NCBI RefSeq assembly: GCF_041260155.1
Contig: NC_091943.1
Coordinates: 19,095,783-19,159,782, forward strand
Reading direction: 5' to 3'
Length of the DNA: 64,000 bases
Source of the DNA: Ptychodera flava
Lineage: Eukaryota; Hemichordata; Enteropneusta; Ptychoderidae
In this document: positions 3,001-58,026 of the stretch, piece by piece
Layout of the letters: the number at the start of each line of letters is the position of its first letter
Numbering within the stretch: the stretch's first letter is position 1
The notes under the pieces: generated by a model
Told to the model about the DNA's origin: nothing
Databases searched by the model: none
The model's input: the letters and a program-made list of their open reading frames with translations, nothing else
Made by a program: the position numbers and the translations under genes

Positions 3001-3579
3001 TTTAGTGTATGATATCTGTAGATAAAACCGTCCACTTGTTATGTATGTCCGGATGTTTGCTTTCTTTTATTTCTATGCATAACTGTCAAACATTTGCAAC
3101 GTAGCTTATATAAGTTTTAATGTACGTTACACTTGTTTACTCGATCAATTTACTTGTATTAGGAGTACATCTATGATCGTGTCATTATCGTCATAAAAAA
3201 ATCGCGCATTCTAACTTAACATTTCCACAGACTGTATGTACCACTGAGGCGGCATGTGGTTACTGACTTTTTTCAAAGTCCTCGACATTTGCTATGCATC
3301 GGACAACGTTTGTCTTTCTTTCGCCAAGCCGTTAGAAAATATCATGAAGAGATTGTGTAGAATATATTATTGCGCTACATGCTGTTTTAAAAGGTTGGCG
3401 CCTTGTGATTTAGCTTTTGATAATTGTTTCTTCGATAGGCTTTCGCGCTTTTTTAATTTCCTATCCTTAAACTCCCTCATGTGTTATATGTTTTCACTGG
3501 CATTTTAAATTGAATTTTGCTTCATCCCAGATAAATAAGTTAATAGATAAATAGATAGATAGGTAGACAGATAGATAGA

Positions 3580-3610
<31 letters not shown>

Positions 3611-3724
3611 AAAATGCGCCATTAATACTTCCATAAGCAATGTCGCGACTTGACCGATACTGAACCTGAAAAATCATTTCAAACAATAATGTTAGAACTT
3701 TCTTTCGTCTTCTTTCATTTACAG
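1..3724. other. Left flank, no confirmed gene; probable promoter/leader region
   Basis: I see no convincing protein-coding exon here. The first 1.8 kb is AT-rich without clear repeats. From about 1,980 to 2,530 CpG frequency rises, with many CGCG and GCGC words, which in animal genomes often marks a promoter. An ATGGCGG in good start context lies at 2515 and opens a frame of about 24 codons that could end at a weak donor (GTTTGT) near 2587. It resembles nothing I know and may instead be leader sequence of the scaffold gene that starts at 3739. A GATA/AAAT simple repeat lies at 3541-3612. Confidence 0.4.
3541..3612. repeat. Microsatellite (ATAG)n followed by (AAAT)n
   Basis: About 40 bases of imperfect tetranucleotide ATAG/GTAG repeat run directly into about 28 bases of AAAT repeat. 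It lies roughly 130 bases upstream of the first coding exon of the scaffold gene. The open frames across it are artefacts of the repeat. Confidence 0.9.
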
Positions 3725-3738
3725 GTGATCGTGACGGC

Positions 3739-6700
3739 ATGGCCAGTGACACAAGGTATGGATGGCTTTCCAAATTTTCATTTCTTCAGAAATGTGTGTT
3801 TCCTTTGTTGCATCCACAACAACAAGCATTATTTGTTCTCTCACCGCATGCCGCCAGGCAACATGATGCATTTCACTGATATTATTACTTATTTGCGGGT
3901 GAGATACTTTTGGCACACTCAGAGTGTTAAACATCCGTAACTCACGGCAAAACGAATCAAACGTTTTTCTTCAAGTGACAATTATATCATAACACAGTGT
4001 ACCGGTATAGTAGCCTTTATGTCAAACAAAGAAAAAATATCTCTTTGTCCGTTTTCATATTTTTCTCTTCTTTGCTATTTACGTTTTTGTAAATATTAAC
4101 CCTGTCACCACTGTGGCTTGAACCAATCTCATCGTTTTCTATGGAAAACTTGGACCTCTAGAGAGGGAAATGGGGTTGGCATGTTAAAGTGAACAGGAAG
4201 TGCTAAGTTTCTGCTGGGTGGAATAGGGGGTCGACTATCATAAAACCTGGCGCACTAGAAAGGTAATTTCTTGGTTTCGGGGGAAGGATGAGACCTCAGT
4301 TCGCAATAAGGATTCTGCCTTAACGAATAAAATTTCAGATCATAATAAATGCGATATTTTAATTGCAACACATAAAAACAGACTGGAAGACAGAGAGTCG
4401 ACAGAAGGGAAAAGATGACAATGCAGACACGGGACACGTATTCGTGTGTTGTTTTAACTTGACTATACGGCTCTGACGCATTGCTGTCTCATTAAGGAAA
4501 ATGGAACACAAATTAAACAATCTAAAAAAAGGAAAAATAATTTGAACTCTGATAGAATGAAACTAATGAAACGTTGAAAAAGTGTAATCGTTCCTTCAAT
4601 CATGTTGTTGATCGTAACATATGTGGTTCTGTAACCCGAAAAAATGAAAGTTGCAGGAGCACTGTGGCCTCTTCTTGACCCATTTACTCTAACATTTAGC
4701 TAGCTTCCCGCTAAAATTCAATATCAACGCATGCTATACGGCATGCTCGCAATTTAATGTAGCTATAGCTATAGGTTGCCTATTGGCGTATAAATTCAGC
4801 ATTTGCGTTGGCATGTTTCGTCTTTAACTATTTCCAGCATCCTATCTACATTATCACTAGATCATAGTAGTTGGTCCAGAGAGTTTTCGGTGAAAGCGAT
4901 TTTTTTTCAAATATTTAAAACAATCGAGCTCTATTCTGACTTGTTGAAATTATAATGGGACACTGACAGTCATCTGTCTATCGTTTGCGCCTTCACCGAT
5001 GTTTTGGGATGTTTTTTAAAATTATTCACGTGGTAGATGCAATCGTTGCTATTATTATAACAGGCGTCGACCAGTCTATCGGGCATCGTCCCTCTGAATT
5101 ATTGTATAACGGCTTTTGCAATGTAAAGTGACTGCAAAGGCGAAAACTTTCATGTTAATTCCACAGCTTGAAAATGTAATGTTTGAATATGCGCTAAGAC
5201 CGAAAATCAAAGCTATAAGCATTACAATCACATTATTTCTTTGTCATTACCAACGGCTGTTTTCTTTCTCATATTGTTGTATGAATACCTGCATCTATCA
5301 AAACGTTAAGTCTAAGATATATTTTAATCTGTGACAGAATTATCACAAGAGCAGAAGGGGTAGACGAAAATTGCCGCGGATTTAGTTTAATGGTGTCGTA
5401 CACGCCCAAGTGTTAGCCTAAACATGTTTTAGAAAGACTAGCCATCACCCTTGAAAAAGGCTACAATACGTTTGCAATTATTTTTTAATTGTGTTACCGG
5501 GATTTTACTTGAATAAACGGACTCATTTAGACCTGCCCTGTAGAAGTAACGGCGCCTATTTTCCGTGTTTATGTAAATAGAAAGGAGTAAAACCATATAA
5601 CAGACTAAGGCGTACCATTTCCTCTATTCAATAAAAGACAAAGAAGTATAGTATAAGCTTATATGAATTTGTGCTGTCGTATTTTGTTCAACAAAGGGAA
5701 AAATTGTTGAACTCGATAGGCGACCCATGAATTGTTACTAATTGACTTATCATATTTTTCGCATTATTTTTCTGTTAGTTGTAAATTTTCCAGATAACTT
5801 TCCAGCCATTTCGTATATGAAAACCGAAAACGTACTTGCTTTCCTTTTCCGTTTATTTGTTTAGCCGCGCCGGCAATGCGCCTGGCGGTGGTAAGACCTC
5901 TGGAGGCGGTCAAACGAAAACGACAACGAGGATGACCTTAAATGAATACTTGAAGACTGTGATGATCGAATCTCCGAGCACTACACAAAGTATCCAAGGT
6001 ACAATGGAGGGTTTATCTGAGTTACGGGAAGAATTGGACAGTTTGAAACACACGGTAGCCTCTCAAGAGGACAGCATAGGAGAGCTTGAGGTTGACATCG
6101 ACACTTTAGCATCAATGAAATCTCGTCAAGACCTGGAGATCGGTAGACTGTGGAACGAAATTAAGAAGATCAAGTCGTTCCTGGTCGATGGGAAAGGCAC
6201 CGATGGTTCGCCCGTACAGCAAATGATGGCGAAATTCGACGAGAAGAGGACAACGCTGAAATGCTTCGTAAAGGGAGAGTCACCTCAAGCCGTGCAGCTC
6301 AGCCCAGAAGAGGTACAGACTTTGCGCCGTTTAGACGCCGAGGTGAACGAAGGATTTGACACAATGGAAAACATTCTCGCCAAGTACACGGATACAGAGA
6401 GGCGAACTAGAGATATCAAGGCGAGCGCAGCTACTGCTAGATCTACCAAAACAGACGGGAAAGCAAAAAGTCCAACTGTGTACACACCTCTCAAACGTAA
6501 ACGCAGTTCTGATGACTATGGTATCCTTGAGAGTGTTACAGTGGTGGAGACGAAGTAACTGACGAACACGAACAAGACAGTTCTGACGTTGCATTACCAA
6601 CTAAACCACCTCCTTATACTCCGAACTTGTCTGAGTACATGGCGGTTGATGAAGCAGACTTTGATAGTCTGTGTTTCTCCCCAAAGATGTATGGTAAAGT

Positions 6701-9700
6701 ACAGATGCATAAAATGGTACATCATCCTGTAGGCAGAAGAGTCCAGCCACCAGAGGAGAGACCATATGAATGGGAGAGAAAAACTGCTGTTGAAGAAACT
6801 AAAGGAGTTCGCTTCGTGGTGGAAGAGCAGCCAAAAGTATCAGACTATGCAAGAGTTGAGCGAAGCTCTGTCGATCAATCATTCGGACCACCTCCATTTG
6901 TCCCCAACTTATCTCCCTTGATGGCACTTGATGATGTGGACTTTGATGATATGTTCTTCATGCCAAAGCAGTACCGAACAGCCCTCAAACAGAAAGAGAG
7001 AGTGCCCACTCCTCGAGGAGGAAGAGTTGGTCGACAAGAAGATAGGTCATATCAATCAGAAAGCAGTGCTACGGATAATGAAGACGTTGATGTGAAGCCA
7101 GAAAGATATGGTATACCGGCACAGTATGGAAAGAAGGTTAGAGCAGATAGAACCAGTGAGAGGATCATGGTAGGTGGCCCAAGAGACAGCAGTATCAGAC
7201 CAGGTCAACAATGCGCGAGCCAAGGACCACGAGCACCGGCTTATATCAAATGGAAATGTCAACTGTTGGAGAAGAATTTGAGTATGACACGAGTCAAGAT
7301 GACGAAGAAGAAGAACCATGGACCCCTCCACACTACACGCAAGCTCTACCTTACGCACCAAACTTAACAGAGCTAATGACAATGAATGAGGAAGATTTTG
7401 ACAATGTGACGTTTACTCCATACATATACGGGCGGGCTCAGAAGCAAATGCAGCATCCTAGGGTGAAGAGAGCAGATATGCCAAGCGACAGGTATAAAGT
7501 TGTTGATGCTGGTGATGATTTTAAGCCAACATATAAAGGACCGTCCCCGAGGAAAAGACCGATGACCGAAACCAACATGAAGATGAAGGACGACAAAACT
7601 AAGGAACGATACAGTCAAAAATACCTTCAAGAACTGAGGGATTTCAGTGCAGTCATCGTTACATATGTCACCACTAATGCACAATTGCAGTATGTTAATG
7701 AATTGCACAGTCAGAAGACAGTTTCCTATCAAAGACATGATAAAAAAGGCGGTAAGGTTGAACAAAAGGCGAAGGATGAACGAATGCAATATGCTGAGTA
7801 TCCTAGAGGACGAAAAGATGTTCCAAAGACTGCTGTCACTACTTCTACTCAGCCACCACCGTTTACGCCAAACATGGATGAACTACTGCTGCAGTATGAT
7901 GATACTGGTGATATCTTTGTCACTCCAGGTATGATCAAGAAAGCTACAAAACAGTACAAGTCAGGCAAGGATATTGGCATATCTGTTGGTGGGAAAATGG
8001 CCGAGAAAAACATCTGCTAAACACGCTGTCGCCTCTGGATACAAATATGATGTTGATGAAGATAGCACCATGGTTGATGAATTCAGTGATAGTAAGTATA
8101 CCCGTGCCAGACAGGGAAAAGAAGCAATGAAACTTTCAACCGCAGACAAAGTTTATGAAGGCGAAAATCGTGCTGATGTTAGAAAAGGAAAAGCAGTCGA
8201 TGATTCTGTAGATACAGAGGTCAAACAAAGCAAGCGTGAAAGTAGGAAAACTGTCCGACAACAAATTGACACTGACAGAGCCCAGGACGAGCCTGCTGCC
8301 AGTGACGTGGCAAGAAAGAGAGAATGGGTCGAAGATGCTTCTATGCCTTGGCAGTTTAGACCAGCTGATGAGCCACCACCTTTTGTGCCTGACATGGATG
8401 CTTTGATTCAACCAGACGACTTTGATGACGTACCACCCACAGCCAATATGTACAGAAAGGTCACCAAAACTTACAAGTCAAAGAAAGAGTTACCAAAAGA
8501 TAAGACTACCGTGGAAAAATCTCGACCTGACATCAAGTATAATGCTGGTCCCATTACCATTTCCGGACGGGAAAAAGAAATTACGAAATTCACGACTGTT
8601 AGCAAAACTTACAGTGATGATCAAAAAAACAGAAGAAGAACAGATAATAAGCCTCCTCCTCATACACCTGACTTAACTCAGTTTATGGGAGCTGATGACA
8701 TTAATTACGATGATATGTTTTTTACGCCAAATCTGTTTTTCAAAGCACTGAAACAAGAAAAGCCTTTCAAAGAAAAGAAAACTTTGAAGCAAAAAGGTGA
8801 CGGCGGTAAGACATTTGATTTAAGTGATAGTAAAGTAGCTGATCGTACCCTAGATAAAGTGAAGGAGAAGTCTGTTGACAGTGAAGTGACAACTCACATA
8901 AGATGGGTTGAAGATCCCTCGATTCCCTGGCACTTTATAGCAAAACCTACAGATGATGGAAAAGAGAGAGAGGTGGATTATCCCCACGATAAGAGGGCTG
9001 GCATCAGCGAACACGAGGGTAAGAAAACTGTTGGGTACCGTTTTGACGATGAGAAAGCGAAGGAGGAGCACCCTGAGAGTGAAGTTACCACACAGAAGAA
9101 ATGGGTCGAAGATGCTTCGATGCCTTGGGAATTTAGACCAGCTGATGAACCACCGCCTTTTGTGCCTGATATGGATGCCTTGATTCAACCAGACGACTTT
9201 GATGACGTACCACCTACAGCCAATATGTATAGAAAGGTCACCAAAAGTTACAAGTCAAAGAAAGATACACCGAAAGATAAGGCTATTGTAGAAAAATCTC
9301 GACCTGACATCACATCTAACAAAGCTCCCATTACTATTTCTGGACGGGAAGACAAAGTTATGAAATTTTCGACTGTTAGCCATACTTACGCTGATGATCA
9401 AGGAATAGAAGAACAAAAAATTAAGCCACCTCCTCATACACCCGATTTAACTCAGTTTATAGGAGGTGATGATATTGATTACGATGATATGTTTTTTACG
9501 CCAAATCTGTTTTTCAAAGCATTGAAACAAGAAAAGCCTTTAAAGAAACGAAAACCTTAAAATCAAAAGGCGATCGCGGTAAGAAATTTGGTTTGAGTAA
9601 TATTCAGGAAGCTGATCATTCCTTGGATAAAGTGAAGGGGAAACCTTCTGACAGTGAAGTGAAAACTCAGATAAGTTGGGTTGAAGATCCCTCGACTCCC

Positions 9701-12700
9701 TGGCACTTTGTAGCAAGGGGAAAACCCACAGATGTTGGAAAACAGAGAGGGGTGGATTATTCCCATGATAAGGGTGCTGACATCAGCAAACACGACGAGG
9801 GTAAGAAATTGTTGGGTACCATTTTGACGCTGACAGAGCGAAGGAGGAACATACTGTCAGTGAAGTTACCACACAGAAGAAATGGGTCGAAGATGCTTCG
9901 ATGCCTTGGGAATTCAGACCAGCTGTAGAGCCACCACCTTTTGTGCCTGACATGGATGCTTTGATTCAACCAGACGACCTCGATGACGTACAACCTACAG
10001 CCAATATGTACAGAAAGGTCACCAAAAGTTACGACTTAAAGAAAGATATCCCTAAGCCTACAACAAAATCTTACTTTGGCGATAAGTCAGGGGTTTCAAC
10101 CATATATGATGCCAAAGCTGAATATACCATTGGGTATGGAAATGAAGTAGAGCGCACTTCTACCACCGGCAGTGATAGAATAAGCGACGATGCTTCAAGT
10201 GAAGAAACATTCACCGATAAGTTGCTGTTTTCCATCAACCTGGTAAATTCAAACATGTCGACCCTCCACGAGTTTCACACGGACAGGGGTCAAAGAAATC
10301 TACCTTCCAGCCTCCACCTTTTGTGCCAGATTTGTCTGAAATGGTGCACTCAGATGACACTGATGAAATTCTTTTCACACCAAAAATGTTCGGGAAAGTG
10401 AGCAAGAAGTACCAAATGATAGGAGACCGTGACACTAGAAAATACCCAATTTATGAGTATGAGTATTATTACAGTGACGAGAGTGTTAGTGATCATGAAG
10501 ATGCCTCATTATATCCAGAAGAACCAAGTGTAATCAAGACGGGCAGAGAGATGGCTCAACAAAGCAAATTTGATTACACAGATTACACAGATGTCAAGGA
10601 TATTTCCATGTTAAGACATGTAGCCAAGATAATTGTAGTCAACGCCCTCACTTCTGCGCAGCTGCAGTATATCTCCTCTGTGGAAAACGTAGATGATGAA
10701 CACAAATATTATGGTCAATATACTGATGATACGCATTTTACTCCACAAATTTTCAGTGGAGGGACAAAGGGTTATCAACCTACCTCCATCAAAGCTGCTC
10801 CAAAATTCGCATGGGGTAGTGAGACGTCAGAAAGTGAAGAAGACTCTTTTTCTGAAGAAGATGAAGATGATTATTATGATGATTATGACTGGAATAAACG
10901 TTACATGGCTGAAAAAGAGCTGAGAGACACGAGGGCAAAGGCAGCAACTATAGACTTGAAACAATGACGTATGTGACCTACACTGAGGCAGAAGAGCAAA
11001 GGCGTTACAGACTAGTGAAAGCTGTCCCTGATCAGAAATCATTCCAGCCACCACCTTTCCTGCCTAATATGGATGAATTGGTCCAGCAACATGATGACTT
11101 TGATGACCTTGCCATCAAACCAAACATGTATAGTAAAGTTACCAAACAATATGGCGCAAGCATAAGCAAAAGGGAAAAAACAATCAGTAACTACTACCGA
11201 CCATGATAATGATGCGAGCCCTGGTGGACAAAGGTTAATAAAGACTGAAGAAAAGGCTGAAGACTATTTGCCTGTTCCATTGAAACTTGCAGGTATGAAA
11301 TCAGTCAAAAGGGAAATCAAAGAATCCAAGGATAAAGCCATTACAAGAGATGAAACCTGTTTTGGTGATATGAAGGGAGCAACGTCCTCTTACAGAGGCA
11401 AGCTGCCAGTCTGTGAAGCATCAGTTGGTCCACCACCATATGCACCAAACTGGGGGAATTAATGCGTGATGATTCCTATGAATATGCGATATTCTCTCCA
11501 AAGATGTTTGAGCACGTGTCAAAGCATTACGGCGTTGGTCCTGACAGAGGGCAGTGGATCCATAGAAGCTGGGGCACCAGTGATGATGATATCCAGACAG
11601 GTGGTTATCAGCTTAATTCCAGTGGTGATAGCGATGTTAGTGACTTTAGCGAGGAAGACACTGATAGTGATATTTTCCACGAAGATTACGATGAGCCAGA
11701 GGACGAATTTCACCCTGCACTTGTAATGACTAGAGAAGCTAGTTCAGATGATGAGTTTTTCTCCGCACTTTGCCTGCCAGAGGACAATATGGCTAAGAAG
11801 GCTGGTGTTCCTAAGACGTATGGCAAGGTTTCTCGGTCTAAACCAAAGAAGGACAAGATCTATTTTGACACAGGGGAAAGATATTGCACAGCGGAAACTG
11901 TTTCTTTGGTACGAGACTACTGTAGGGTTTATGTAGCCCATGTAATATCCGGTGCTCAACTTCAATACGCAAATGAAAAGCTAGGGAAAGAAGTATCAAA
12001 AGACAGATCTTCAACAAAATACGATAGTGACAAGTATGGTCTGATAGAAGAATATAAAGGGAAGGGAAGAGATTTTACCGCACCCCCACCATATATCCCA
12101 GATATGAATGAACTTGTTCTGCAAGCAGGTGATTCCGATGAAGTGTTTATCACCCCGAAAATGATCAGCAAGGTGACAAAGACGTACAAACGTGTTGATG
12201 ACGCCGGGAAGATGTCATCACGTGGAACTGATGATCACGACAAGTTTGACCAGGCAGATGCCACACCACTGAAGTACAGAAAGGTTACGAAGAAAGTGAG
12301 CTTTGTTGATGACATCATGGGCACAGAAACACCTGTGACATTCGAGCAAGCTGGCGTATCACACGAAGAATATTTTCGCCCACCACCATAGCACCAGATT
12401 TGAACGACGTGCTTCAGGCTGACTACCACACAGATATGACCTTCTCTCCCAAAATGTATGGACGCGTCTCCAAACAGTATGCGACCAAACGTCGAGATGA
12501 TTCAGAAAGCAGACAATATAGATATAGCCGTGATGGTCGCATCGTAGGTGAGCGTGCCAAGGAAGCAAAAAGCAGAGCTACAAAATATTATCGTGCCTAC
12601 CTGAAAGATGAGTATTTCGACAGTTCAGAATCCGACCAATATGAAGATGAGGAGGAAGAGAATTCTTCTCCACAGTATCATTGTTCGACAAACCATCTCA

Positions 12701-15117
12701 GGAGTCAACCGAGGATGAATTCTTCTCTGCAATGTCTTTGACAGATGACTTTGGTACCGCGGATGATAAATTTGATGTTGATACGTACGTGAGGAGCATG
12801 GACAAAAGATCTATCAACAAGCAGGTGACCACAAGTGAAGACTATGTTGTGACCCTCAGCAAGGTGGTGGTTCAAAATGTGATGGCTGGGGCGATAATAA
12901 AGTACACACGAGAACTGAGAGATGGTGGTAAGAAAACCGTTACCCCTACTGTTAAGACTGTGCAGAAGAGAGTGGAAACTGCCAAAGACAGACAGAGATT
13001 TTCACTGAACGCCAACTGGAATAACAGCGCTATTGTAACAAGAGATACTGGTCGTTCCCGACTGCAATCCAAGCAAGGTAAGGGTTACATGTAACACTTT
13101 GACACAGAAGATCAACATACAGGACAAATTCGTCATTTACATGTTCCAGAGGTATGAACATTTCTACGTCAAACATCCTGATGTTTTTGTAATCGTCAAA
13201 GATAGTAAACCTGGAGTGTCTGAGGTATCCAGATTTTTAGCGTGGAGAGCTGTACCTCGTGTACAAGCAGTGTTCTAAATTTACATTAAAGTTGACAATC
13301 TACATTTGACGTTTAGTTCACTTATATATGATTACTCTCGCGCTTATCGACGGTTGTCTAGTTTCCTAAGATTCTCTTTCGATGTCATTAATAATGTTTT
13401 GGTTTTTTTTGGTCGGATGTGAACAACATTCCCGGGTTATCAATTTCAAGAGCATGCAAATTAAGTTACTTTGTGAAAGCGGGTCGGATGATTTAATTCT
13501 TTCTACTCACTTTTACGAAAAAGCAGGCCCTCAGCTTTGCCACGCATTGGAATAAAATAAATAAAATGTGTGCGACTTCTACATTACATAGCAACCCCGG
13601 GATAGCACCTTAAGATTTTAAAACATCACATCTAGATCTGATTTGAAAGAAATACAATAAAATCCAGCAGGTGTTTAGCAAAGTAAAGCTTATTACAGGG
13701 CATGATTTATTATGGTAAAATGTTAGGTATTTTTTTTTAATTATACGTCACACTGTAATTGCATTTTATCCATGGTTAATGTTTCACATTTTTATACTTT
13801 TTCCTAATCGTCGGTCTAGGAGAAAGAGAACCAGTGTGCCCTCCACCCTTCGCGCCAAATGTAGATGAATTAGTGGATCAAGGAACGACTGATGATATCT
13901 ATTATCGCCCCAAGCTGTTCGGCCATGTCACGGAGACCAATATACCGTTCTCGAAGAAAGACCTTGACGTCCTAACCCAAAAGCGTACAGATGCTGGCCG
14001 CCGATACGATAGAGTCGCCAGCGGCGTTGACGGGGCAACACAGACACAGCCGAAGTTCAAAGTCACGCCGAGGGTCATGAGAGACCAGAGTGGAAAGATA
14101 GTGGACGGTTATTACGACGCACTCATGGTGCAGTTTTGCAAAATCTATGCTGTCAATATAATCACCAGTGCTCAGCTCCAGTACGCGGCTGAAATTACTC
14201 AAGCCTTGGAGGAGTCTGAATTGGCTAGGATGAATGAAAGGGCCAAACGTGAGACCGCCTACTTCGTGAAGGACAAGATACAATATTACGAATCACAGGC
14301 TACTACCAGCGATAAAATTACTGAGGACAATTACAAATATCAGAAGAAGACTGGTATTGTCGCTGAGAGAGTCCCACAGCCAAAGAGAACGGAGGACAAG
14401 TCTGTGAATACCGGACAGCAGTGGGAGTTGGCAGAAGGTAGTGTTGCCGCTCATGAAAAGGAGCACGACAGGAGAGATGCCACAACACAGACAAAGGTTA
14501 GAAGCGTCGGTCCAAGACACAGAGGCTGGTTCACCAGCAATCGGGAAGCAGAAACAAGAACACGGGAGAAGAGGGGTCAAGATCTTGCCAAGAAGAAGAA
14601 GAAGAAGGCAGCGAAGAAGGAAAAGAGTAAACAAGGTTTCATTCTCTTTTCGTTAGGATCGAAGAAGACAGATACGAGAAAGAAATTACAGAAGATTGAA
14701 GATAACATTAAAGTGTACGAGAAAATGTTAAAAAAGGAACGAAAACTCCACGCCACAGCAATGCCCAGTCTAAATCTTCCGAAGGAACAGACAAAGCTGA
14801 AGAGGGACAGAAATTAGTCAGAAAAAACGGAGGAAAAGAAAATATAAAAATGCATGAAAATCTACTCAAAAAAGAGAAAGCCGCTTTAGAAAAGTTACAA
14901 AAGAGGGATTCGACCGAGCGCCGTAACAAAAGGAAGCTTGAATCAGCTGAGAAAAGAACGTCTCCGGCTGGAAGAGACTCTAGTCGTCAGCGGGCAACCG
15001 GTAACAGTGAGGGCAGGCAAAAAGCCAGGAGAGGTGACTCTTAAATTAATTAATCTACCGGAAAGAGTGGCGAATCATCAGTTTCAAAAAATAAGAATCG
15101 TAAATGTACAAAGCTAG
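3739..15117 (+). CDS. Large repetitive scaffold protein, candidate multivalent PKA-anchoring (AKAP-like) protein
   Basis: I do not recognise this gene. The model is exon 1 at 3725-3755 (ATG 3739 in the context ggcATGGcc, donor GTATGG), a giant exon at 5865-13077, and exon 3 at 13820-15117. Both introns join in phase, which supports the start chosen. About 2,800 codons: a Gly/Thr-rich head, a coiled coil (about 5,940-6,200), then a disordered, highly charged body with 15 copies of a PPP-[FY]-x-P module. Interspersed are five short hydrophobic helices matching the PKA regulatory-subunit docking pattern. An acidic stretch of Asp/Tyr/Glu lies near 10,840-10,890. The tail from about 14,580 is Lys-rich coiled coil, then a less charged stretch of about 45 residues. 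The frame breaks by one base near 6530, 7220-7330, 8008, 9540, 9807, 10225, 10950, 11174, 11452, 12389, 12665, 14812 and 14945. Frames on both sides stay open and repeat-like, so these look like sequence errors. A signalling scaffold role is inference from the helices. Confidence 0.72.
5938..6200 (+). other. Predicted coiled coil near the N-terminus of the scaffold protein
   Basis: From the MTLNEYLK start of the segment through the EIKKIKSFL end, Leu/Ile/Met recur at heptad-like spacing between acidic and basic residues (for example the LSELREELDSLKHTV stretch). There is no proline apart from one SPST. This suggests a self-association region ahead of the PPP modules. No specific family was recognised. 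Confidence 0.55.
7631..7711 (+). other. Anchoring-helix copy 1
   Basis: This encodes an amphipathic helix ending in TTNAQLQYVNEL. Small and branched hydrophobic residues fall at the i, i+3/i+4, i+7/i+8 and i+11 positions expected of PKA-RII docking helices. It is the most divergent of the five copies, with Thr at one hydrophobic position. It lies between PPP modules 3 and 4. Confidence 0.55.
8325..10035 (+). repeat. Higher-order tandem repeat of about 780 bp
   Basis: The WVEDASMPW segment occurs at 8325, 9102 and 9883, that is, 777 and 781 bases apart. One unit holds this Trp motif, PPP module type A (DALIQPDDFDDV), a SGRE stretch, PPP module type B (KPPPHTPDLTQF), a KTLKxKGD stretch, a WVEDPSxPWHF motif and a KxGYxFD stretch. 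Two full units plus the start of a third are present, so this part of the protein grew by recent tandem duplication. The second unit would be 783 bases (261 codons) if two missing bases, near 9540 and 9807, were counted. Confidence 0.9.
10605..10685 (+). other. Anchoring-helix copy 2 (best match to the AKAP pattern)
   Basis: This encodes VAKIIVVNALTSAQLQY. It fits the pattern A-x-x-[IL]-V-x-x-A-[IL]-x-x-A and shares the core K-x-[IL]-V-x-N-A-x-x-x-A-x-x-Q-Y with the RII-binding helix of human AKAP7 as I recall it. The helix is flanked by acidic, disordered sequence. Docking to a PKA regulatory subunit, or to an RII-like domain of ROPN1/CABYR type, is inferred from the pattern only. Confidence 0.65.
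11904..11985 (+). other. Anchoring-helix copy 3
   Basis: This encodes CRVYVAHVISGAQLQYANE, with hydrophobic residues at the docking positions and the shared GAQLQYAxE ending. It is preceded by a predicted helix start, TVSLVRDY. Confidence 0.58.
12837..12920 (+). other. Anchoring-helix copy 4
   Basis: This encodes LSKVVVQNVMAGAIIKYTRE. Its LSK-x-[LV]-V-[EQ]-N register is close to the RII-binding helix of AKAP7 as I recall it. It differs from the other copies by GAIIKY in place of SAQLQY. Confidence 0.62.
13078..13819 (+). other. Phase-1 intron of the scaffold gene
   Basis: The donor CAAG|GTAAGG follows codon SKQ and the acceptor CGGTCTAG|GA precedes GEREPVCPPPF. Joining the two gives one Gly codon and keeps the frame. 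The sequence is AT-rich with no other feature. This is one of only two introns in about 8.5 kb of coding sequence. Confidence 0.85.
14118..14200 (+). other. Anchoring-helix copy 5
   Basis: This encodes FCKIYAVNIITSAQLQYAAE, in exon 3 of the scaffold gene and followed by a long Glu/Lys/Arg helix. It shares the TSAQLQY ending with copy 2 and has hydrophobic residues at all expected docking positions. Confidence 0.6.
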
Positions 15118-16892
15118 GGAAAGAAACTTTGAAATGGATAGAAAGAAAAAATGTACAAAAATCCCCAAACAATTAATTATCCGTACTTCCAAACAGATCA
15201 TTTTCACCACCAGATCATCATCATTATTAATTTGTTTACCATAAAGAAAGACAACATCTGTCGGTGATTTGGATATGTTATAGTGGCAACTACAAACTCA
15301 AAAGCATGCAGATTTTATTTCAGTCCTTCATTATTGCCGTTTCAATTATTCGAGGGGAACATTGTTGACCATAATCGAAGTTTGACATTTTTTCACAAAT
15401 ATCTAGACAATTGCTATGAGCAATGGCCACTTTTTTACAGCGATTTGACGTGTAACTAGATAAAAGGCGAAGCTTGTGAATTAAAGCGATGTTTATAGAG
15501 AGTATCGCAAAGTTTCCGATGTGTAATTATTTCTGGCGACGGTTGTTTTAAATTATCACAGAAAATATCAGGCATTTTAGTGAAACACTTTAGATTAGGA
15601 GTTTTGTATCAAGTCACCTGCCTGTCCTCTTTTTATGAGTGCTCAAACCCTTAGCACATGTTCCCAGTGTAAAATTGTTGACAACAACCATAACAATTAG
15701 TACTTAGTGGCTGTAACTTTTGATGATTATTTTTACTAGAATTTCTGGTGTTCTCCCAAAGTGTGTTGAGATAAGCAGCCTTCAATTTGTCAGTTGTGTT
15801 GATAAACTGCACTGTTGTTGTTGACAAGTGAATTCTGATCTGCCCTAGTATTCAAATGTAAATAATAACAGAGTATTTTAGACCCCACCCCAGGGGACTG
15901 ACTTCTGTGCCCTGTGGTAACAATGAGTCAAAATATGCAATTAACCTTTTCATTTTATTGTTTTTGTATTTAATTGTAACAATACTCTTGGTGTATATTA
16001 AGATTAAGCCTTGAAATATCAAAAGATGACTTCCTGTGTTGTACGGAAAAATGAAGCATCGACAACTTTTTTATTTTTTCAAAAAAAATCGCAGTCTTTT
16101 CTGAATTTTTCAAGCAAAATGGCAATATTAAAGTTTTTCTTTTCTTGCTTTTCGATCTACACGTCAATGGGGCAGAGTTGAAATTACACCATCCGAGGTA
16201 GTCCACCATCTGGACACTTCTTCAAAACTTGGAAATCAACTCCGAGTCCTTTGAAGGGCGCCACCACAGCGCAATATGTTGTCATAAAGGATATACATAC
16301 CTGTAGCTGCATGCTTAGAAGAGAGTCTTTGCTGTCTTTATACATGATATTTAAAATTCCATGATTGATCTATGTTTTCTCCCATCAAGGTATCATTTAT
16401 ATCTATGGTCGGGTGTACTTTCATAGGAATTTTTCGGTACTGGCACAGGATGACTCCACTGCTTTGATAAGCTTATAGTATGCCTTGGGAGATGGTGATT
16501 TTCTTCAGTTTGTCTGTCGCCAAATCACGCTATGGCCCTTGCCGTATATACTTTATATTGCGTTCGTTTTTATGAATATGGCATTCATATCATCAAAACT
16601 ACAATTTTTCTGTTTTGCTTAGTGTACTTTTAGCAAATTTGCAAAATGTCTGACAGACTGCAAATCGTTTTTGATACATACCATTCTCCTCGTATGCATA
16701 GTCCATTACATACACCAAATATGAAATATTTTGATACACACAAACCATCCATCTCTGCATATCATTTCAAAGGAGAATGTTAAAACCTGTCACCTACCAA
16801 TCCTTGCTGCTCAATTAGTTGTAGCAATTAAAATGAAACATTATCATTCCAACCAAATAACTTGATAAGACCTGTTAATGACAATCAATATG

Positions 16893-32218: not shown

Positions 32219-34650
32219 CTTGAACACTTCTCCCTCGTTCGCGCTTGCAGCTTACACTTTTCAACAATGTTTTTTTCAGTTTTTAAGATTTTGAGAATTT
32301 AACATAAAAAAAAACCATTTAATCATTTTTATATCTAAATGTATGAATTTTAAATGAAATATTACGACAACTTTAGATTCGGTTAACGTTACTTTTTTCT
32401 TTCCTTGAAAGAGGACAAACAGGCTGAACTTTCAGAAGAGGCCACTGTACATTGTCACAAATAATCAAGGTCCTCGCCAGAAATACGTCATATGTTACAG
32501 TTGCCAGTGCAGTTTTGTAAATTGGGTAAGTTGTTGGACTTGCCTAGACCCATATTCTATTAAGTTCCTGTTTTTAACAGCATGTTACCAATTTCACGTT
32601 GTCACAATGACGACATAACACAGAAGTCGCAGTTGTTCGCTGCTCCTCACGGGGTCTCACTCAGCCCAGGCCCAGTGCCATTAGTCTACAGATTTATCGC
32701 ACTGAGAAACGAAACAGTGCATGGACTGGTAGAAAAGAACGTCACGATATCCTATATGTAGAAAAGTAATTCTTGGTAGTCATGTTGCATTGTATTATCC
32801 TGAGAATCTGAAAGAAAGTGTCACAGTTTCAGAGTAGGGAAGTATATTTTTGGCTTTCGAATCGAATGTGGTGCAGTCCTCACAACAAAAACACTAAATC
32901 AAATAACTGACACTATAGGAAAAAAGTGCGTGACTAGAGCGAGAAACTGACGCTTTCTCGCAATCAGTGAGAATCTGTTCTTATTCTCACCGCTGTCGGT
33001 GAGAAAATTTTAATCTCCACTGGAGATTGGTGAGAATTGTACTCCTTGGCGAGAATAAAGTGTGGGGACAAATTCTCACCGGTGAGAATGGAAATTCTCA
33101 CTAAGTACAGCGAGAATTGAAATTCACTGGCGAGAATCATCAAGACTCGCATTCGGAGTCTTGATGATTCTCGCCAGTGAATTTCAATTCTCGCTGTACT
33201 TAGTGAGAATTTCCATTCTCACCAGTGAGAATTTGTTTCTCACACTTGATTCTCGCCAAGGAGTGCATTTCTCACCAATCTCCAGTGGAGATTAAAATTT
33301 TCTCACCGACAGCGGTGAGAATAAGAACAGATTCTCACCGAGGTAACTGGTCGTTTCGGCACCAAGTCGTTTCGGCCCAAGTCGTTTCGGCATCTCAATT
33401 TCCGGCCCCAAGTCACTTCGGCACCGCAACCCAAGACGTTTCGGCATCCGTGTTTCGATTGTTTTCAAACTATTTAGTAATTGACTGATCCGTCATATTC
33501 GTAAGCATGACCTTTGCGTTCTGACCACTACTTTTACGTGTGTTTTGTGTGACTTTTGCCGTGCTGCTTCTCGTCACCGCTTTCAAACTTTTGCCGTGTC
33601 GGCGGCTATTGATAATCGATAAACTTGAGTCACAGATTTGAAAATAATATGAAGTTTTTTCTCTTCCCATGTTCTCACAAAGATTAAAGCATACATGTAG
33701 GCCAGGCCTACGTGAATGTTAGTTGACACTATACTTTTTAGTGCTTTGATTTGCAACATTACGCTCCAGCACAAGTTCCCACAGGTAAGCTTAGCCTTCA
33801 GCGGTGCCGAAACGTCTTGGGTCGCGGTGCCGAAACGACTTGGGGCCTGAAATTGGGAGGCCGAAACGTCTTGGGCCGAAACGACTTGGTGCCGAAACGT
33901 CTAGAAACCGTCACGATTGCGAAGAAAGCGTCAGTTTCTCGCTCTAGTCACGCACTTTTTCCCTATAGTGTGAACACCTGCCCGTATTTCATCAACGGAA
34001 GATCAGAGGTAAAATTACCCGTTTGGCAGTAATCTGACATCCCGGTGTGTGACATCCACACTGGCACCACAAATCCCTGCTGCGTTCCGTAGCCCTCAAC
34101 TTTCTCCGGCGATTTTTAGATGGTGGAGAAAGGTAGGCCCACCCTTCTCCACCAACCAAAATGGCAAAAATAGCTTAGGGAAGTTGCAGGTTACGGAACT
34201 GCAGCTATACAGATCTTGGAGGAGTCTCTCGGACATAGGCAGATACACTTTCCTCACAAATTCCTTACAAAATTTACATGTAATCATATCCCCTAGGGAC
34301 AAAAAAGATACGCTAAAAATTATGGCAAGGCATAATTATGCATCATGGAGATATTGAGCATGCTTATGAAAAGCCGAACGGGATATTATTTTCACCTGCC
34401 TCCAAAACAAAATTTTGCAATTGCATTGTGTAGCTATAAAAGTATGGTGAAAATTTGTCCAGTCTGTGTGCTTCCAGCCTAAAGTGGGGAGAAAGAATAA
34501 ATGTGTGTTTGGCTGCAGTTGCTTTCTTATATGGAGACAATTCAAAGAAGCAGAAAGACAGAGAATGAAATCACAAAATTTGCATAAATGAAAATCATTT
34601 CGATTCTAATATTATTTTTCAAACTGTCTTTTTTCTTATTCCTTTAACAG
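32219..34650. other. Head-to-head region between TBC1D13 and ZER1
   Basis: The TBC1D13 start codon (32218, -) and the first traced ZER1 coding exon (34651, +) face away from each other. A shared promoter near 32,220-32,300 is plausible. Most of the space is the fold-back transposon at 32911-33970. The rest shows no coding signal; a 5' ZER1 leader exon may hide here. Confidence 0.5.
32911..33970. mobile_element. Non-autonomous DNA transposon with 55-bp terminal inverted repeats and nested fold-backs
   Basis: Terminal repeats CACTATAGGAAAAAAGTGCG (32911 onward) and the reverse copy ending CCCTATAGTG (33970) match over about 55 bases with one or two differences. A possible TGA duplication flanks them. 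Inside the left half (32966-33340) is a near-perfect hairpin with arms of about 180 bases centred near 33150, built on TGAGAAT words. The right half (33345-33905) begins and ends with inverted clusters of the unit AAGTCGTTTCGGC, four to six copies each. It has no transposase frame. Confidence 0.85.
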
Positions 34651-37600
34651 CATTTTTCATGTAAGGCTTTTGTGGAGGCCGAGGACAGGGTATTCACTGT
34701 CATACAGAATGGAGATGGCTGGGCAGCTGATGAAGTCAGTGAACCTGACTCCCTCTTTGAAATCGCCTGCGACTTCTGTCTGCAAAATATTGTGTCTTTT
34801 TTGTGTATACTCAAGATGCATCAGTGAGCATACGGCAGGGCATTTACATCCCCGTGGAGGTATGTGACAAACTTGTCAATCGGTGTGCGGCTCAGCGTAA
34901 GATAACCGGCGATTTCCTGTCTTTGTTTTCGGACACGTCGATGACTAGACTATCGCGTCTGAACTTAAACGGCTGCCATGGCATCCAGCATGGACTTCAA
35001 CACATATGTGGACATGACCTTGTGGAGCTTGACATCTCTGACTGTCAGCTCGGTCCATCCGCCTGGCAACATTTACAAAAACTCAGTGGATCGCTGCTTT
35101 CTCTGAACATTCATGGATGCAACCAGTTGATGATGGGGGTCATGCCGGAGTACTTCCTAATGACAAAGCTGCGGGCGTTGGACATCGGGAACACAAATTC
35201 TCCGCCGGCACTGTTGAAACAGCTCATACTACCGCTTGTCAATCTGACATCACTTGATGTATCCCAAGAAGTCAAGAACGGAGATTTGACTTTCTTAGAT
35301 TCTGTTAAAGACACACTGAGGTCTCTAATTCTGTTTGACTGTAAATTAAGCCTTGATAGCTTTCTATATATCTGTCAAATGAAAGCGCTTCGGTAAGTAT
35401 GCATGTACAGTCTGTCTACAACACTAGACACTGAAAAATTAAACACACATGCACAGCAAGTGAAATACCCCATGATTTGATTGACTGATCCACACAGAGA
35501 TCAAGCACCGCAGTGTGATAAATCTCTAGACTTCTGTACACAGAATACCATGGTGAGAGTTTTTAAAAAACTGACAAAACAAATTGTTGGTTCGAGTATC
35601 TTTCTGAATGCCATATTTTCAATATCACAAAATGTAATCATTTCTGCTTGAAGATGATGCAGTTTTGCAAAACTTTGAAAAGACTTGAAATGAATAGGGA
35701 AATAAAGTTGCATCTTGTTGTCTAAGAAGTAGATATTCATTTGCTACAGCAATCTACATATTCAGTGAGTTATATTTTGTGGCTACCTCCTTTGCTGATA
35801 ACTTCATTTTGAAAAGCACAACATTGAAGTTCACACAAACGTAGGATTTTTTGTGCATATTGCAGCAAAATTTTTATCAGTCACTGACTTGATATTTGTA
35901 TTCTGCCAATTTGAGATTGAACCTGCAAGGACAGGAGCTGAACAATGGTTAAATTGGTGCAATGATGTCTTTGTGTACAAATCAGGGAGAATTGTGGGAA
36001 ATTTCACATGCTGTGAGACATGGAGGTGAAAAGGTCAAACATTTGTCAGTGTAGTTTTATTGCCCTTCCATGGAGGAGTGATCTTCTTAAAAGTGTATGC
36101 ATGAAAAACACCGACCCTTCCTTTCTTCTTGATCAAGAACAAGTGACCCTTCACGTTGTCAAATAATTTGCATTTCTTTAAGGAGCTGGTACTGGTAGTC
36201 TTCCCACATTCCCACGAGAAATGCCAAGTATTTGCCTTGTCAACAGAGTGTGTACTATATATTATAGCCCAAACATCGGACTATGTGCCCGAGGGTAGGT
36301 GACCATTTGCCCGACGTAAGGAGGGCAAATGGTCTCCTGCCCCGAGGGTACATACATGTAGTCCCTTGTTTGGGCTATAATATTTTTATTACATGCCTCT
36401 CTTACTCAGTTTGCACCAACATATTTACGTTTATTGGCAAATTATAGTCAAATACTTTATTTTCATTTTAGACGAAAAACGGTTAAAATAGAACGATTTC
36501 ATCATCGAATGGCGCATTGATATATTTGAACTACTGTTATGGCGGTTTTCAATATTTTTATGCGAAATTTTCCAAAAAACGGATTTTCTTGTGCAAAACA
36601 TGCAATTTCAAGACTTTTACGTCGAAAAGTTTCAAGTTGAAAATAGTTCCGGTTCCCTTTCAGTCCAGTGATGACTATGCGGCCCACGACGTCATCGGCG
36701 AGTTACCATTGAATCCTATGGAGCGCGCGACGTTCGATATACGAGGCATGTAATAAATGTTTATGTATTCAGTCAGCAAATTGTCACAGTGTACTTCAGC
36801 AGTTAAGCTTCAACTACAAAGTTTGTGACTATACCGGTAGATATGATGTGTTGACAATGAACCAATAGGCACTGCAATATTGTCTGAGAAGAACCAAATG
36901 AAACGTAGGTGGTTGTCCCATCTGCAGCCATGCATGTGGGACCCATCCAACGGGTCTGTTACTGCACGCTGCACATCCCAGTTGCATCCCTCGTGCATAT
37001 CCAAAATATTAAAACAGCCGCTGTACCGAAATTGGTGGCTGAGGCTGAAGCAGCTTCATATAAAGAAGGGTCACTACCAAATTTTTTAGCAAAGTCTTAG
37101 TGAGCTATCAACATGCATCAAATGCTGAATATGCTACACTTGCTCAACATTCATTGCCAGTTTCTGGAAAGAGGCAATGTTCATCGACAAGGAAGTTTAG
37201 ACAGGATCATGACTGCCTCCCTATTACATCAGTTGGAAAACTATCCGTCATGTCATTTCTATTCATTTTTCTTAGAGCAAGATGTCAATACCATATGGTG
37301 CCAGCATGTTAATACCAATGTGGCATATGTATACATGCACAGATAACCCACTGGACATGGAGTTGCCTTCCCAGAGGAGTAAAGTGTTCAGTTTAAAAGT
37401 GCAAGGCAGTTTCAATATAAAAGCAATGTCATATCTGTCCCTAAAGTATGATGTAGTACAGTGATCAATAGACCTGACCCCTTATTGCTCTGCTCTGTGA
37501 AACCTGTGTTGTGGAAATAACTGTACATTATCCTTTGAGTAGTTTCTGCTTTTTTGTTGTAAACACACTGAACTGTGTAGCATGTAAAATTATCTTTTTT

Positions 37601-40600: not shown

Positions 40601-42429
40601 TAATCAGTAAATCCTGTTACAGTATCTCCTCTTTTCACTGAATTTAAATGTTGCAAGATATTACACACATTATGCCATTCTTATTTTGACCAACTTGATC
40701 TGATGGTGACAAGTGAACTAGCTTGGCCAGAATGAGATAAGAGTTGTCTGCTAAACTATTGTCATTGTTCAACATGTAGGTATCAGGCCAGAATGATGAG
40801 CAGCAGATACTGACAGCTTTAGAAGCCTATGTGACCAGGACACCTTTCTTTGTCAAAGCACTGAACAGCTTGTTTGACATTGCCAGGGTGGCAGAAATAC
40901 GGAATCCATATCAGGCAGTCAAGGTAAGGACAGGTGATGCAGTAAGGTTGTCTTACTCATTCTTTTGAAATAATTTGTGGTATAATTTTTTCAAATGTAA
41001 ATATATATGTTGTAAGAAAGATATATATGTCAAAACTTAGTTGGAATCGGTCAGGTGATAGGCTGTGCCAGTGTCCTTTTTTTATGCATCCTTTGTGGTA
41101 TTTTTGTAATAACATTACTGTTTATAATACCGGATACATCTCACATTTGTGACTGGGGTGTCAAATGGGCCGTTTTACTGTTTCTTGCAATGTTAACAAT
41201 TTTTCTTCCGATTTACTTTATTTTTCGCCCAAGTATGGAATGCTATCTTCCACAGCCTTCTGGATAGCCTGTAAAATGTTAATGTACAGGGCGTAAGAGG
41301 TATTTCTGCAATTGTGCCATGTGTCCCTATAAACAGTTCAACAGTGAACGCGCTATGGTAGCTGGAGAATGCACTGTACATGAGGGTTGGGGATGCCTTG
41401 AAATGGGGAATGTTACAAAACAGTCTATTTTAACACAGCAAAACTCTATTATTCTATCTCAATGGAAGATAAGAGTAATTTGTCGTATCTTCATAAATTA
41501 GTTAAAGTGACATTTTGTGACATAAATGTCATATGTTAAATGTACCAGTATCAGCGCAGTCATGCACTATGACTTGCATCGTTTAACTTCATTTATTTTG
41601 ACAAAACTCTGCCTCTACATCATCAGAACTGTGAAGAGAAGTTGAACTCTACCCTCTCCCTGCGATATTCTTATTTGTTAATCCAATACTACAGCATGCG
41701 AATAGGTTGATTTAAAATGTTATATCATTTGTGCCCTCATTTTTATTGTACACAGGTATGCAAAAGTAATTTCACCTGAGAAATTAGTGTAGTGATTAGA
41801 ATGAGTGATAGGTTTGTCAGACAGCTGCCCATGGATCTTGACTGCAAACTGAATTTATCCACAATAAAACTCACAGCGAATTGAGTGAAGTTCAGATGGA
41901 AAAAGGAGAAAAGACTCAGAGAAATTTTGAAAGTAACACTTGGCATATGTCGCAAAGTCCACATTTAATGTTGTAATGTTTCTTATTCTCCCAGTGTATT
42001 GTGGCAGGAATGGACAGACATCGTGACAAGACAAGTCGTCCAGATTTCAGGAAGGTACAAAACTCATTGAATTTTGTAGAATTTTCACCATCTCTGAATG
42101 CACAGAAATACAGCGTACAAGTGTATGAAGAACTGTGTAAAGTTATTTACAACTTCAATCCTATGTACATGTATCAATGTATGTATAGTAGTAGCACATG
42201 AAACACATGCATTATCCAGTACAGCTGTACATTACATAGATCTCACAATGCATGTACAGATACATACTGCCAAATGCACTGATGTGTGTACCTACAAACA
42301 AATATCTGTACCGGTATATGCGTAAATTGATTTACACACAATACATACCATTACATATGCATGTACCGGTATGTATATGTGTAGATAAATGTATTCATAT
42401 TAATGTATAGATGCATGCATATATATATA

Positions 42430-42528
<99 letters not shown>

Positions 42529-45500
42529 GAAGACTTAGACATAGTCACAGACACACACACACATATACACACACATTCATTTATAGAAACATGTATACCA
42601 GTACATACATATGTACATACGAAATATGCTTGATATGTATAGGCTCTTACATATACTCATTGATACCCTTACACATCCCAAACAGTGTAAAATGCTATTA
42701 TCATAATGATAAGACCTGTCACGGTCCCTCCACAAACCGTGGATCTGTACGGCCATGATTGGTATTTGGGCACTCAATCTTGTGTGTATGTATCTCTCTC
42801 TGTGTATGTATATATGTATACATGCATGCCACATATATACGTGAATATAAATACATTTATCTACACATGATATACCACACTCAGTCTTGTGTGTGTGTAT
42901 CACTCTCTCTGTGTATGTATGTAAACATACATGCCATATATACGGTATGTGAATATAAATGCATTTATCGACAAATATACTACACTCAGTCTTGTGGCCA
43001 GAGTGGCCTGTGTGACCTTGAGCACCAAACTACTTATCAGGGCGATACAGATCAATTAGAATACCAGTACTGGTGTACCAGACTTACAGCGAGAGAGGTG
43101 TATTCATGAGATGCAACTATCCATGATAAGTACCACGTTATCGAATTACATTTTTGAAATTTGTCATTTGTGTTCTATCCAGTGCCTCACTCTACCACCT
43201 GACAAAGAGAGATGCCTATGCTAAATTGGGACACAGTCTAAGAAGGTAAGCTGCATGAAACAAAAACCTGGAACCACCATAGTCAATTCCGTGAGGCTGA
43301 GCTTTGCCATAGACAACACCAGTAATTAGTCACTGCACACTTAAGGTGTTGGTGCATGTATATGAGTGGCATCTATTTCATTAATATGGTTTGCATATAT
43401 GTAAGTTTCTTGTGTATTGGATATTCAGGGTTTGCTATCAGCGATTCTCAGTGTTTCATGACGTCAACTACTAATTGATCCATTACCAGCGCATTATCTC
43501 AATGCTTACAACGCATAAATGTCCTTTACTTGATAGACCCACTCTATTTGAGAAAATATATGATGAGACAAACTTAAATTGGAATTCATTTATTGACAAA
43601 AGGTGTTCCTTTATTATCATAGGATCAAAAAGAATGTCTTTTTCATGTTGGAGAAAGTTTGATTTATTTGACAACCAGTTTACTGTGGTGTTGAAGTCAC
43701 AAATGCTTTTGACAACTATATCGGCAACAGTTCTTTTTGGCCCCATCCCGGAAATCACTTTAATCTCAGACTATCCTTGGAAGAAGCACATCAAATACAA
43801 CTTTTGGAGGGGTTTATAATTAGGATCAGGTTTAGTTACAGGGTTAGCTACTTAAAGTGTTGTTACCCTTAGTACCCAAGAAAAAATTTGGGGGTTGGGG
43901 GACCTTAAGGAACTTTTTCCACTATATGCATACAAATATACGGATACAGCTATTGCCCCACCATAGATATGAAGGGTACTAGCAAATGCACATTTTCTGT
44001 TTCAGGAAATCTATAGTGGCATTGATCAACGCCATGGAGAATCTGCCGCGCGAACCCACGCTGCAACGAAATGCCTGTCTGACATTATGCAACTTCAAAG
44101 TGACCTGAAGAGCTGGAGTTCGTTTACGAGCGAGTGGCCCGGCAGCTTCTGCGACTCGCAACCGACGAAATGAACGATGACTTCATACAGAAGGTGGCAG
44201 TGTACCTGTGCAATGCCATAGTGTGCCAGGTGGATGGTGTTCAAAAGCAGCTGGTTGGCAAGATAGGTGTGGTAAAGGTTGGTAAACCCAAGTTATGCAA
44301 GACGTCTTCATCATATGCCATCATTCCAAAGTCCCCGTTCATTGGCTATACTACCGTACACTATCGAAAGATAAAGCACTATTATATTTACTTAGTGTGC
44401 AAACTTTTCCAAAAAGCATTTATTTATAAAGATAATATAGCAATTACATAAAAACTGATAGTGGACACACTGATCAGCTGAACATGTACGCATGGCTAAG
44501 CATTATGTGAAATTTTGGTTAGTCACTGATAAACCTGCTATGGCAATCAGTGCTAGGAGAGTGCAGTTTGGATTTCACATCATCTCTCCAGATGGAGGTT
44601 ACACGTATCATCTTCCCATATGTCTCACCAATTATCTAGGCTCACCTTTCCCCAATTTCAATGTTCCCTCCCAAAGACAATGTTGAAGTTAATCAAGGAG
44701 AGACTGGAAAACAGAAATTGTGATGAAGTAATGGAAATAGCCTGGAGTACTCTGTGGAATGTCACCGGTGAGTGAGAATTAAATTTTATATCTGTTATTA
44801 TTATATTGTATTGCATTCATTTTGTCAGTGTTCCGGTCAATTGGATATTGCAGCAAGTCTGGGATCAGAGATTCCAGATCTCGAACTTGATGGTGCTTTT
44901 TCACCTGATCAAAATATGCGTCACATCGCCTTCCGAAAGTGAACAAGGGCTTGGTTGACCATTGTCACTGGTGTACAAAGGAAGAGTTGAATTTTTGTTT
45001 TCCCAATCCAATAACGGGACTAGGGTTTTTCCAATCAAAGGACTGCCAGTAGTGTAATCCATTGTCAGTTGTATGCTTAGTACATGATGTGGTTTGAAAC
45101 ACCTTTCTGTCAATTGCTATAAATTTCAGATGTATGTGTTGGCCAGATACAAGTTGAAAATGTCACAACTAGGCGTGTTCTTGATTTCAGATGAAACTGC
45201 TGAGAATTGCCAGATGTTCTTAGAAGGGAATGGAATGCAGCTGTTTTTGTCCTGCTATTCTGTAAGTGAAATAGTTACCCCATTCTAGTATTGTCTCATA
45301 AATGAAAAAGAAAACTCTAAATTGAAAGAGCAAATGTAAAAAAATTCTATCTACAGACCTAATTACCCATGTTATCATGTTGGCCCATAGTGTTTTCTGT
45401 ATACTTTTCCATGCCAAAGATATATCCACAAAAAATTTCACTCATGAAAAAATCTAAATCAATTATATTGTAACTTTGACACTTCAAAGATTAGTCAAAG

Positions 45501-57519: not shown

Positions 57520-58026
57520 GGTTATTGTTCCTCGCAAACAAATTCAAAGATGTTTCTGTTCCTGTCGCGGCTTGATGTTGTCAGTGGGAGTACTAGAACT
57601 ATGCGGCACAATAGAGAGAACGCGCCCCCGTTACAATGCCCTTTGTTAAGAGTTTTGTAATAAGATCACTAGAGGGCGTTGCAGAAGAGGGAAAAGAATG
57701 GGAAAAACTTCGGTTGAGAACAAGTTCGGTGCTTGGCTTTAGTTTAGGGATGGTCCTTTCAAATACCTTTTCTTTTCATGAGTAATTCGTTGTCGTTGCG
57801 AGATAATATCGAACTTCTAGCCCTCGCACCAGCCTCACTGAAACACAAGGCTGAGGGGTACGGCGTTCGAACTATTCGAATCGAAATACAGAATGTTCAC
57901 CGAACATCTGTGGTTTGAACATCGCACGCCACAGAACAGGGACATGGTCCACGTAAATATGTACCCTCAATATGTATACTTTGTTCTGCCAAATTATTTC
58001 GGTAATACCCAAGAAACAATGGTAAC
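57520..58026. promoter_or_regulatory. Putative bidirectional promoter, ASB-like / TSP1 receptor
   Basis: 507 bases separate two divergent start codons. The part next to the ASB-like gene has CpG words. CGAACTATTCGAAT at 57868-57881 recurs exactly at 2451-2464, just upstream of the ATGGCGG at 2515. No TATA box is obvious. Confidence 0.45.

Follow-up and report, generated by a model that had tools for sequence, protein, structure and literature searches.

What does the plus strand encode near the start of the window, i.e. the 64,000-nucleotide stretch of Ptychodera flava DNA analysed here, and what could the many repeats in the encoded protein be for? An earlier note, made from the letters alone, had described about 2,800 codons between 3739 and 15117 with a PPP-[FY]-x-P module of about 35 residues in 15 copies. 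The giant protein with its 15-copy module is undescribed, and we suggest, with a probability of roughly 0.5, that it is a multivalent scaffold, probably intracellular and mostly disordered, that presents 15 docking peptides to one partner and carries five helical sites in addition.

In a codon-based scan of 3501-15600, coding signal covers two stretches, at about 5876-12998 and at 13817-15038, with the frame changing along the way. The region from 3501 to 5875 has no such signal, so that the gene start at 3739 assumed earlier is unsupported: 3739-5864 gives no sign of coding, and the exon begins after a pyrimidine-rich stretch with an acceptor-like AG that ends at 5864. Because of this AG, a further exon upstream is likely; a possible start codon within the giant exon is the ATG at 5932. 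The stop codon is the TAG at 15115-15117. The gene occupies about 5865-15117 on the plus strand and consists of a giant exon, a GT-AG intron and a last exon:

5865-13077, plus strand: giant exon, delimited by the coding scan and the junctions, with a predicted long helix at the N-terminus, modules 1-14 and helices 1-4
13078-13819, plus strand: intron, GTAAGG...TCTAG, GT-AG, phase 1
13820-15117, plus strand: last exon, which encodes module 15, helix 5 and the lysine-rich C-terminus

The frame is not continuous but falls into 15 open pieces separated by 14 junctions, one of which is the intron and 13 of which are frame breaks. Joining the pieces gives a composite protein of 2,838 positions, made up of 2,824 residues read and 14 unknown junction letters (X), and the length of about 2,800 codons given earlier is confirmed. 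The intron, the frame breaks, the predicted N-terminal helix and the five helices described below were all missing from the earlier note.

Fifteen related modules of about 40 residues each lie on the plus strand between 6597 and 13983 and share the consensus PPP-[FYH]-x-P-[DN]-[LM]-x-E-L … DDxDD … F-[TS]-P-K-M-[YF]-x-K-V-x-K-x-Y. A pattern search found 13 of them, and a profile added two more, one with an LPYAPN start and one cut by a frame break. Scores are from the profile search unless marked as leave-one-out:

6597-6749, plus strand: module 1, 63.5 bits
6879-7019, plus strand: module 2, 59.6 bits
7349-7453, plus strand: module 3, LPYAPN variant, 27.6 bits (40.3 leave-one-out)
7844-7987, plus strand: module 4, 70.7 bits
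8367-8510, plus strand: module 5, tandem block A, 69.6 bits
8646-8795, plus strand: module 6, block A, 62.7 bits
9144-9284, plus strand: module 7, block B, 69.9 bits
9420-9566, plus strand: module 8, block B, with a frame break close to the end, 57.8 bits
9925-10068, plus strand: module 9, block C, 66.8 bits
10305-10448, plus strand: module 10, 71.8 bits
11039-11179, plus strand: module 11, 70.5 bits
11421-11566, plus strand: module 12, interrupted by a frame break and scored as two pieces, 2.8 and 39.1 bits (49.3 leave-one-out)
12077-12223, plus strand: module 13, 69.2 bits
12374-12492, plus strand: module 14, split by a frame break, 25.7 bits for 12391-12492 (41.2 leave-one-out)
13831-13983, plus strand: module 15, 56.4 bits

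That these are 15 diverged members of one family, as had been claimed, is borne out by leave-one-out scoring with near-identical sister copies removed as well, in which all 15 modules reach 40.3-68.8 bits; 200 shuffled versions of the whole protein yield no score above 7.3 bits. In a six-frame profile search of the window every match with E≤0.04 lies on the plus strand at 6597-13983, and outside this interval only two minus-strand rows with E-values of 5.7 and 6.0 were returned. Two weak matches, at 10722-10781 (E 0.35) and 12236-12319 (E 0.054), resemble the second half of the module. Of the alignment columns, P6 and P9 are kept in 15/15 modules, P5 in 14/15 and K37 in 13/15, and the aromatic position is F in eight rows, Y in four and H in two, with one row broken, the alignment near the prolines being uncertain for the row split by a frame break. 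The middle of the module varies in length, in agreement with the earlier description of conserved first and last parts around a variable middle. Successive modules are spaced by 94, 154, 168, 172, 93, 166, 92, 168, 126, 244, 128, 219, 100 and 241 residues, and part of the recurrence among these values stems from a block duplication.

This duplication allows selection on modules and linkers to be compared. Block A (residues about 815-1075) and block B (1074-1335) are tandem duplicates, and block C is a third, partial copy. Undivided, the pairs give dN/dS values of 0.47 for A/B (258 aligned codons), 0.31 for A/C (60 residues) and 0.22 for B/C (83 residues), and a mainly-linker stretch of A/B gives 0.57. 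When A/B is divided, identity is 94% in the modules (79 codons; dS 0.249, dN 0.027, dN/dS 0.11) and 66% in the linkers (179 codons; dS 0.330, dN 0.200, dN/dS 0.60). Nonsynonymous changes number 5.0 in 189.8 sites in the modules versus 75.2 in 429.0 sites in the linkers (Fisher p 2e-8 on rounded counts), and synonymous changes 10.0 in 47.2 versus 28.8 in 108.0 (p 0.55). Of the 15 differences between modules, 11 fall at codon position 3, and the differences between linkers are about equally divided among the three codon positions (32, 35 and 37). The similar synonymous divergence of modules and linkers argues against gene conversion as the source of module conservation, and we have put this explanation aside. 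In this test, the sole basis of which is one pair of blocks, the module peptide seems to have been kept by selection since the block duplication and the linker to have been little constrained, as the earlier note had proposed on the basis of conservation alone; this is the strongest result of the analysis.

The module matches no named domain, again as stated earlier, in Pfam (all 15 pieces and the module rows), in NCBIfam (four of the 15 pieces) or among PDB sequences. More specifically, no Pfam model came at or near its cut-off with any of the 15 pieces; the 15 module and five helix rows gave hits to three families, a single row in every case, of which the best had E 0.017 and 15.2 bits where the cut-off is 27. 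In NCBIfam only the N-terminal piece matched, with nine models all far below cut-off that reflect coiled-coil background. Against PDB sequences the module profile found no family (best E 0.5), the last-exon piece had no match, and the helix profile reached at best E 0.92, with bacterial-type enzymes and at most 14 residues matched. In a protein collection no relative was found for the whole composite at E≤0.01 (7,987 candidates sharing most words scored), for region 1960-2240 at E≤0.05 (540 candidates), or for the last 981 residues and region 308-703 at E≤0.1 (4,410 candidates). These searches were weakened by the choice of words from charged sequence and by length limits, and absence from the collection is weak evidence because its coverage of animal proteomes is uncontrolled. 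Genome contigs and viral contigs, with one piece used in each scan, gave no relative, and the window has no match in Rfam. Six module and helix words had no match in paper texts, which says little because sequences are seldom printed in text, and the titles and abstract openings of the papers listed on invertebrate or molluscan sperm AKAPs and on repeat scaffolds contain nothing on the giant protein.

At the N-terminus, AlphaFold2 run on the single sequence predicts a long helix:

5974-6189, plus strand: predicted long helix, residues 36-107 of the read-through

In the model of the first 221 residues the ten-residue means of pLDDT are 83-94 in residues 41-90 and pTM is 0.29; the predicted helix is read as a coiled coil, and the model has no match in the PDB by Foldseek. 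The C-terminus is lysine-rich and, judged by eye, looks coil-forming. The residues K, D, E and R together make up 33% of the protein, and its composition and the low model confidence are consistent with the disordered body that had been proposed, so that the protein is probably mostly disordered; the low AlphaFold2 confidence could equally reflect an alignment that is too shallow.

A second repeat, a hydrophobic helix of 21 residues, is present in five copies:

7643-7705, plus strand: helix 1, FSAVIVTYVTTNAQLQYVNEL, from residue 591
10620-10682, plus strand: helix 2, VAKIIVVNALTSAQLQYISSV, from residue 1581, the most AKAP-like copy
11918-11980, plus strand: helix 3, YCRVYVAHVISGAQLQYANEK, from residue 2014
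12855-12917, plus strand: helix 4, LSKVVVQNVMAGAIIKYTREL, from residue 2328
14134-14196, plus strand: helix 5, FCKIYAVNIITSAQLQYAAEI, from residue 2508

Positions A13 and Y17 are invariant in all five, and AQLQY is found in four of the five, with AIIKY in helix 4. From the start of the preceding module to the start of helices 1-5 the distances are 98, 103, 164, 159 and 98 residues, with an uncertainty of 1-2 residues in the anchor for modules 3 and 14. The two long distances contain all three copies of a third small repeat, EFFS[AT][LMV][CS]L, at 11753-11764, 12660-12671 and 12717-12728 (residues 1959, 2263 and 2282). An AlphaFold2 model of module and helix, built with 14 window sequences, has ten-residue pLDDT means of 87-93 in the helix and 52-71 in the module, with pTM 0.32. 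Hydrophobic residues face more than one side of the helices, an arrangement that would also suit a bundle.

Combining these data, we suggest a working model in which (i) the predicted N-terminal helix would join chains into oligomers, (ii) each module would be a docking peptide for a single copy of a common partner and would probably fold on contact, making two contacts through PPP-[FY]-x-P-[DN]-L and F-T-P-K-M-Y-x-K-V-x-K, (iii) the five helices would attract a different partner that binds helices, perhaps one with a PKA-type docking/dimerization (D/D) domain, or alternatively bundle with each other, and (iv) selection would hold the docking peptides and let the linkers drift. For binding, partners, oligomerization, disorder and cellular location alike, the model is what we infer from sequence and structure prediction. 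Given a strongly constrained, repeated peptide in a protein for which no named relative was found here, both the interaction and the domain of the partner may not yet have been described, and the fifteen natural variants within one gene constitute a ready-made series for locating the binding residues.

Could the helices define the protein? On a tentative alternative reading, against which the odds are considerable, the protein is an AKAP-like scaffold in which the five helices dock D/D domains, those of PKA regulatory subunits or of related proteins like ropporin, and the modules either carry clients of the kinase or tether the complex, e.g. in a sperm tail or cilium. Scored against six published PKA-anchoring peptides (from a table in PMC4526808) in the register [FYVL]-[SAC]-x-x-I-V-x-x-V-I-x-x-A, which was picked by eye, helices 1-5 rank 14, 1, 21, 2 and 30 of the 2,826 windows of the protein, so that two of the five, helices 2 and 4, resemble PKA-anchoring helices. 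Their summed score of 43.2 was matched in 0.05% of 20,000 column permutations and in none of 5,000 row-wise permutations, and among the other registers 14 of 16 sum below zero and the remaining two reach 11.5 and 25.8. However, the choice of register by eye itself speaks against the reading, the best helix (14.8) lies inside the range of shuffled whole-protein maxima (mean 11.8, 95% point 15.7), region permutation gives p values of 0.21, 0.006, 0.049, 0.012 and 0.19 for helices 1-5, and the top window of helices 3 and 5 is in another register. An AKAP consensus pattern fits two overlapping windows, both in helix 2, which is no more than shuffling can produce (500 shuffles averaged 0.7 fits and reached at most 5). 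At 0.18-0.35 the helical moments are lower than those computed for four of the anchoring peptides (0.37-0.50), the fixed Y of AxxxY is absent from the anchoring peptides, and neither the 15 pieces nor the module and helix rows have an AKAP match in Pfam. The tests are mixed, and an AKAP-like role is possible as a testable suggestion. In its more specific form, a lineage-restricted giant AKAP-like scaffold with five units of a proline-aromatic docking module and a D/D-docking helix at set distance plus ten further modules, the reading is rather improbable. If true, a single molecule could array five regulatory dimers alongside up to fifteen partner copies, and neither the docking module nor an anchoring protein of this multi-site kind would yet have a name.

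Among known systems, AKAPs of the AKAP3/AKAP4 type and radial spoke protein 3 are scaffolds with short D/D-docking helices, and the similarity is that two of the five helices of the giant protein resemble anchoring peptides; the giant protein differs in having no Pfam similarity to them, a weaker helical moment and the AQLQY extension in four of five helices, and we know of no AKAP that carries a 15-copy module. The giant protein also resembles a general kind, the disordered multivalent scaffold built on repeats of short linear motifs, in having one constrained peptide in many copies among drifting charged linkers. It differs from that kind in a peptide of about 40 residues with two conserved halves and no match to a named family, five copies of which are followed at set distances by a conserved helix. 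FSIP2 is also a large protein, which the giant protein does not match in Pfam. The scaffold role of FSIP2 and other fibrous-sheath organizers (PMC11276731) is alike by analogy only. The same article describes AKAP3 and AKAP4 as having arisen in vertebrates. If the helices anchor D/D proteins, the giant protein would show that a scaffold with several anchoring sites can arise by another route than that of the sperm AKAPs of vertebrates.

Alternatively, the modules could bind along a polymer such as a microtubule, actin or another filament, making the protein a structural cross-linker or ruler with helices that bundle between chains. The many copies, the basic K-x-x-K-V-x-K stretch, the lysine-rich C-terminus and the predicted long N-terminal helix would all fit such a function, as would helices with the several-sided hydrophobicity of a buried bundle. 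We nevertheless regard it as unlikely, given that the module spacings are irregular, for which reason a ruler on a fixed lattice was dropped, and that neither the module profile nor the last-exon piece has a sequence match among solved proteins.

That the gene is a decaying pseudogene of such a scaffold protein is improbable. This reading would account for the 13 frame breaks that interrupt about 8.5 kb of coding sequence and with which the gene may be dead in this individual. Yet ten of the 13 are one base short (or two extra) and three are one extra (or two short), and we take this dominance of one kind as a mark of noisy long-read assembly. Moreover, every break is a frame change, none of the 15 pieces, divided as they were at the breaks, contains an internal stop codon, a neighbouring ankyrin/SOCS-box gene likewise lies in two frames, which an intron could also explain, and codon constraint has been visible since the block duplication. 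We infer that the 13 breaks are probably assembly indels. Programmed frameshifting was put aside because the breaks, inspected by eye, have no evident site in common.

Finally, it is very improbable that the modules bind a proline-motif domain of a known kind (WW, EVH1 or SH3): by the standard motif definitions PPxY occurs in three of 15 modules, well short of the majority expected of WW ligands, with a fourth site, PPHY, just ahead of module 3, and [RK]xxPxxP fits four of 15 module starts, but the aromatic position is F in 8/15 and H in 2/15, which to our knowledge PPxY binders do not take, the aromatic residue or leucine before the proline run that marks EVH1 ligands, searched for as [FWYL]PxP, occurs once in the 2,838 positions and outside the modules, TSG101-type and FxFP motifs are absent from the giant protein, and the conserved second half of the module would be left unexplained.

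Elsewhere in the window, pieces of a ZER1/ZYG11-like leucine-rich-repeat gene lie on the plus strand at 34761-35396 and 44104-44451 (PF25013 E 3e-12, PF22964 E 8e-12) and, spanning about 10 kb, probably represent several exons. On the minus strand at 56121-57543, the frame of an ankyrin-repeat gene overlaps a second one that encodes a SOCS box (E 9e-5; 23.0 bits, slightly under the cut-off of 23.5); the gene is probably of ASB type and interrupted by an indel or an intron. The open frame 59784-60620 on the plus strand contains a thrombospondin type 1 domain (PF00090 E 1e-7). Together, these three genes are indicative of animal DNA. A 105-base tandem repeat in two copies at 42771-42996 adjoins a long AT microsatellite at 42419-42520. 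The short tandem repeats at 33350-33902, perhaps a dispersed repeat, are based on GTCGTTTCGGCACC and words like it, part of them in reverse complement.
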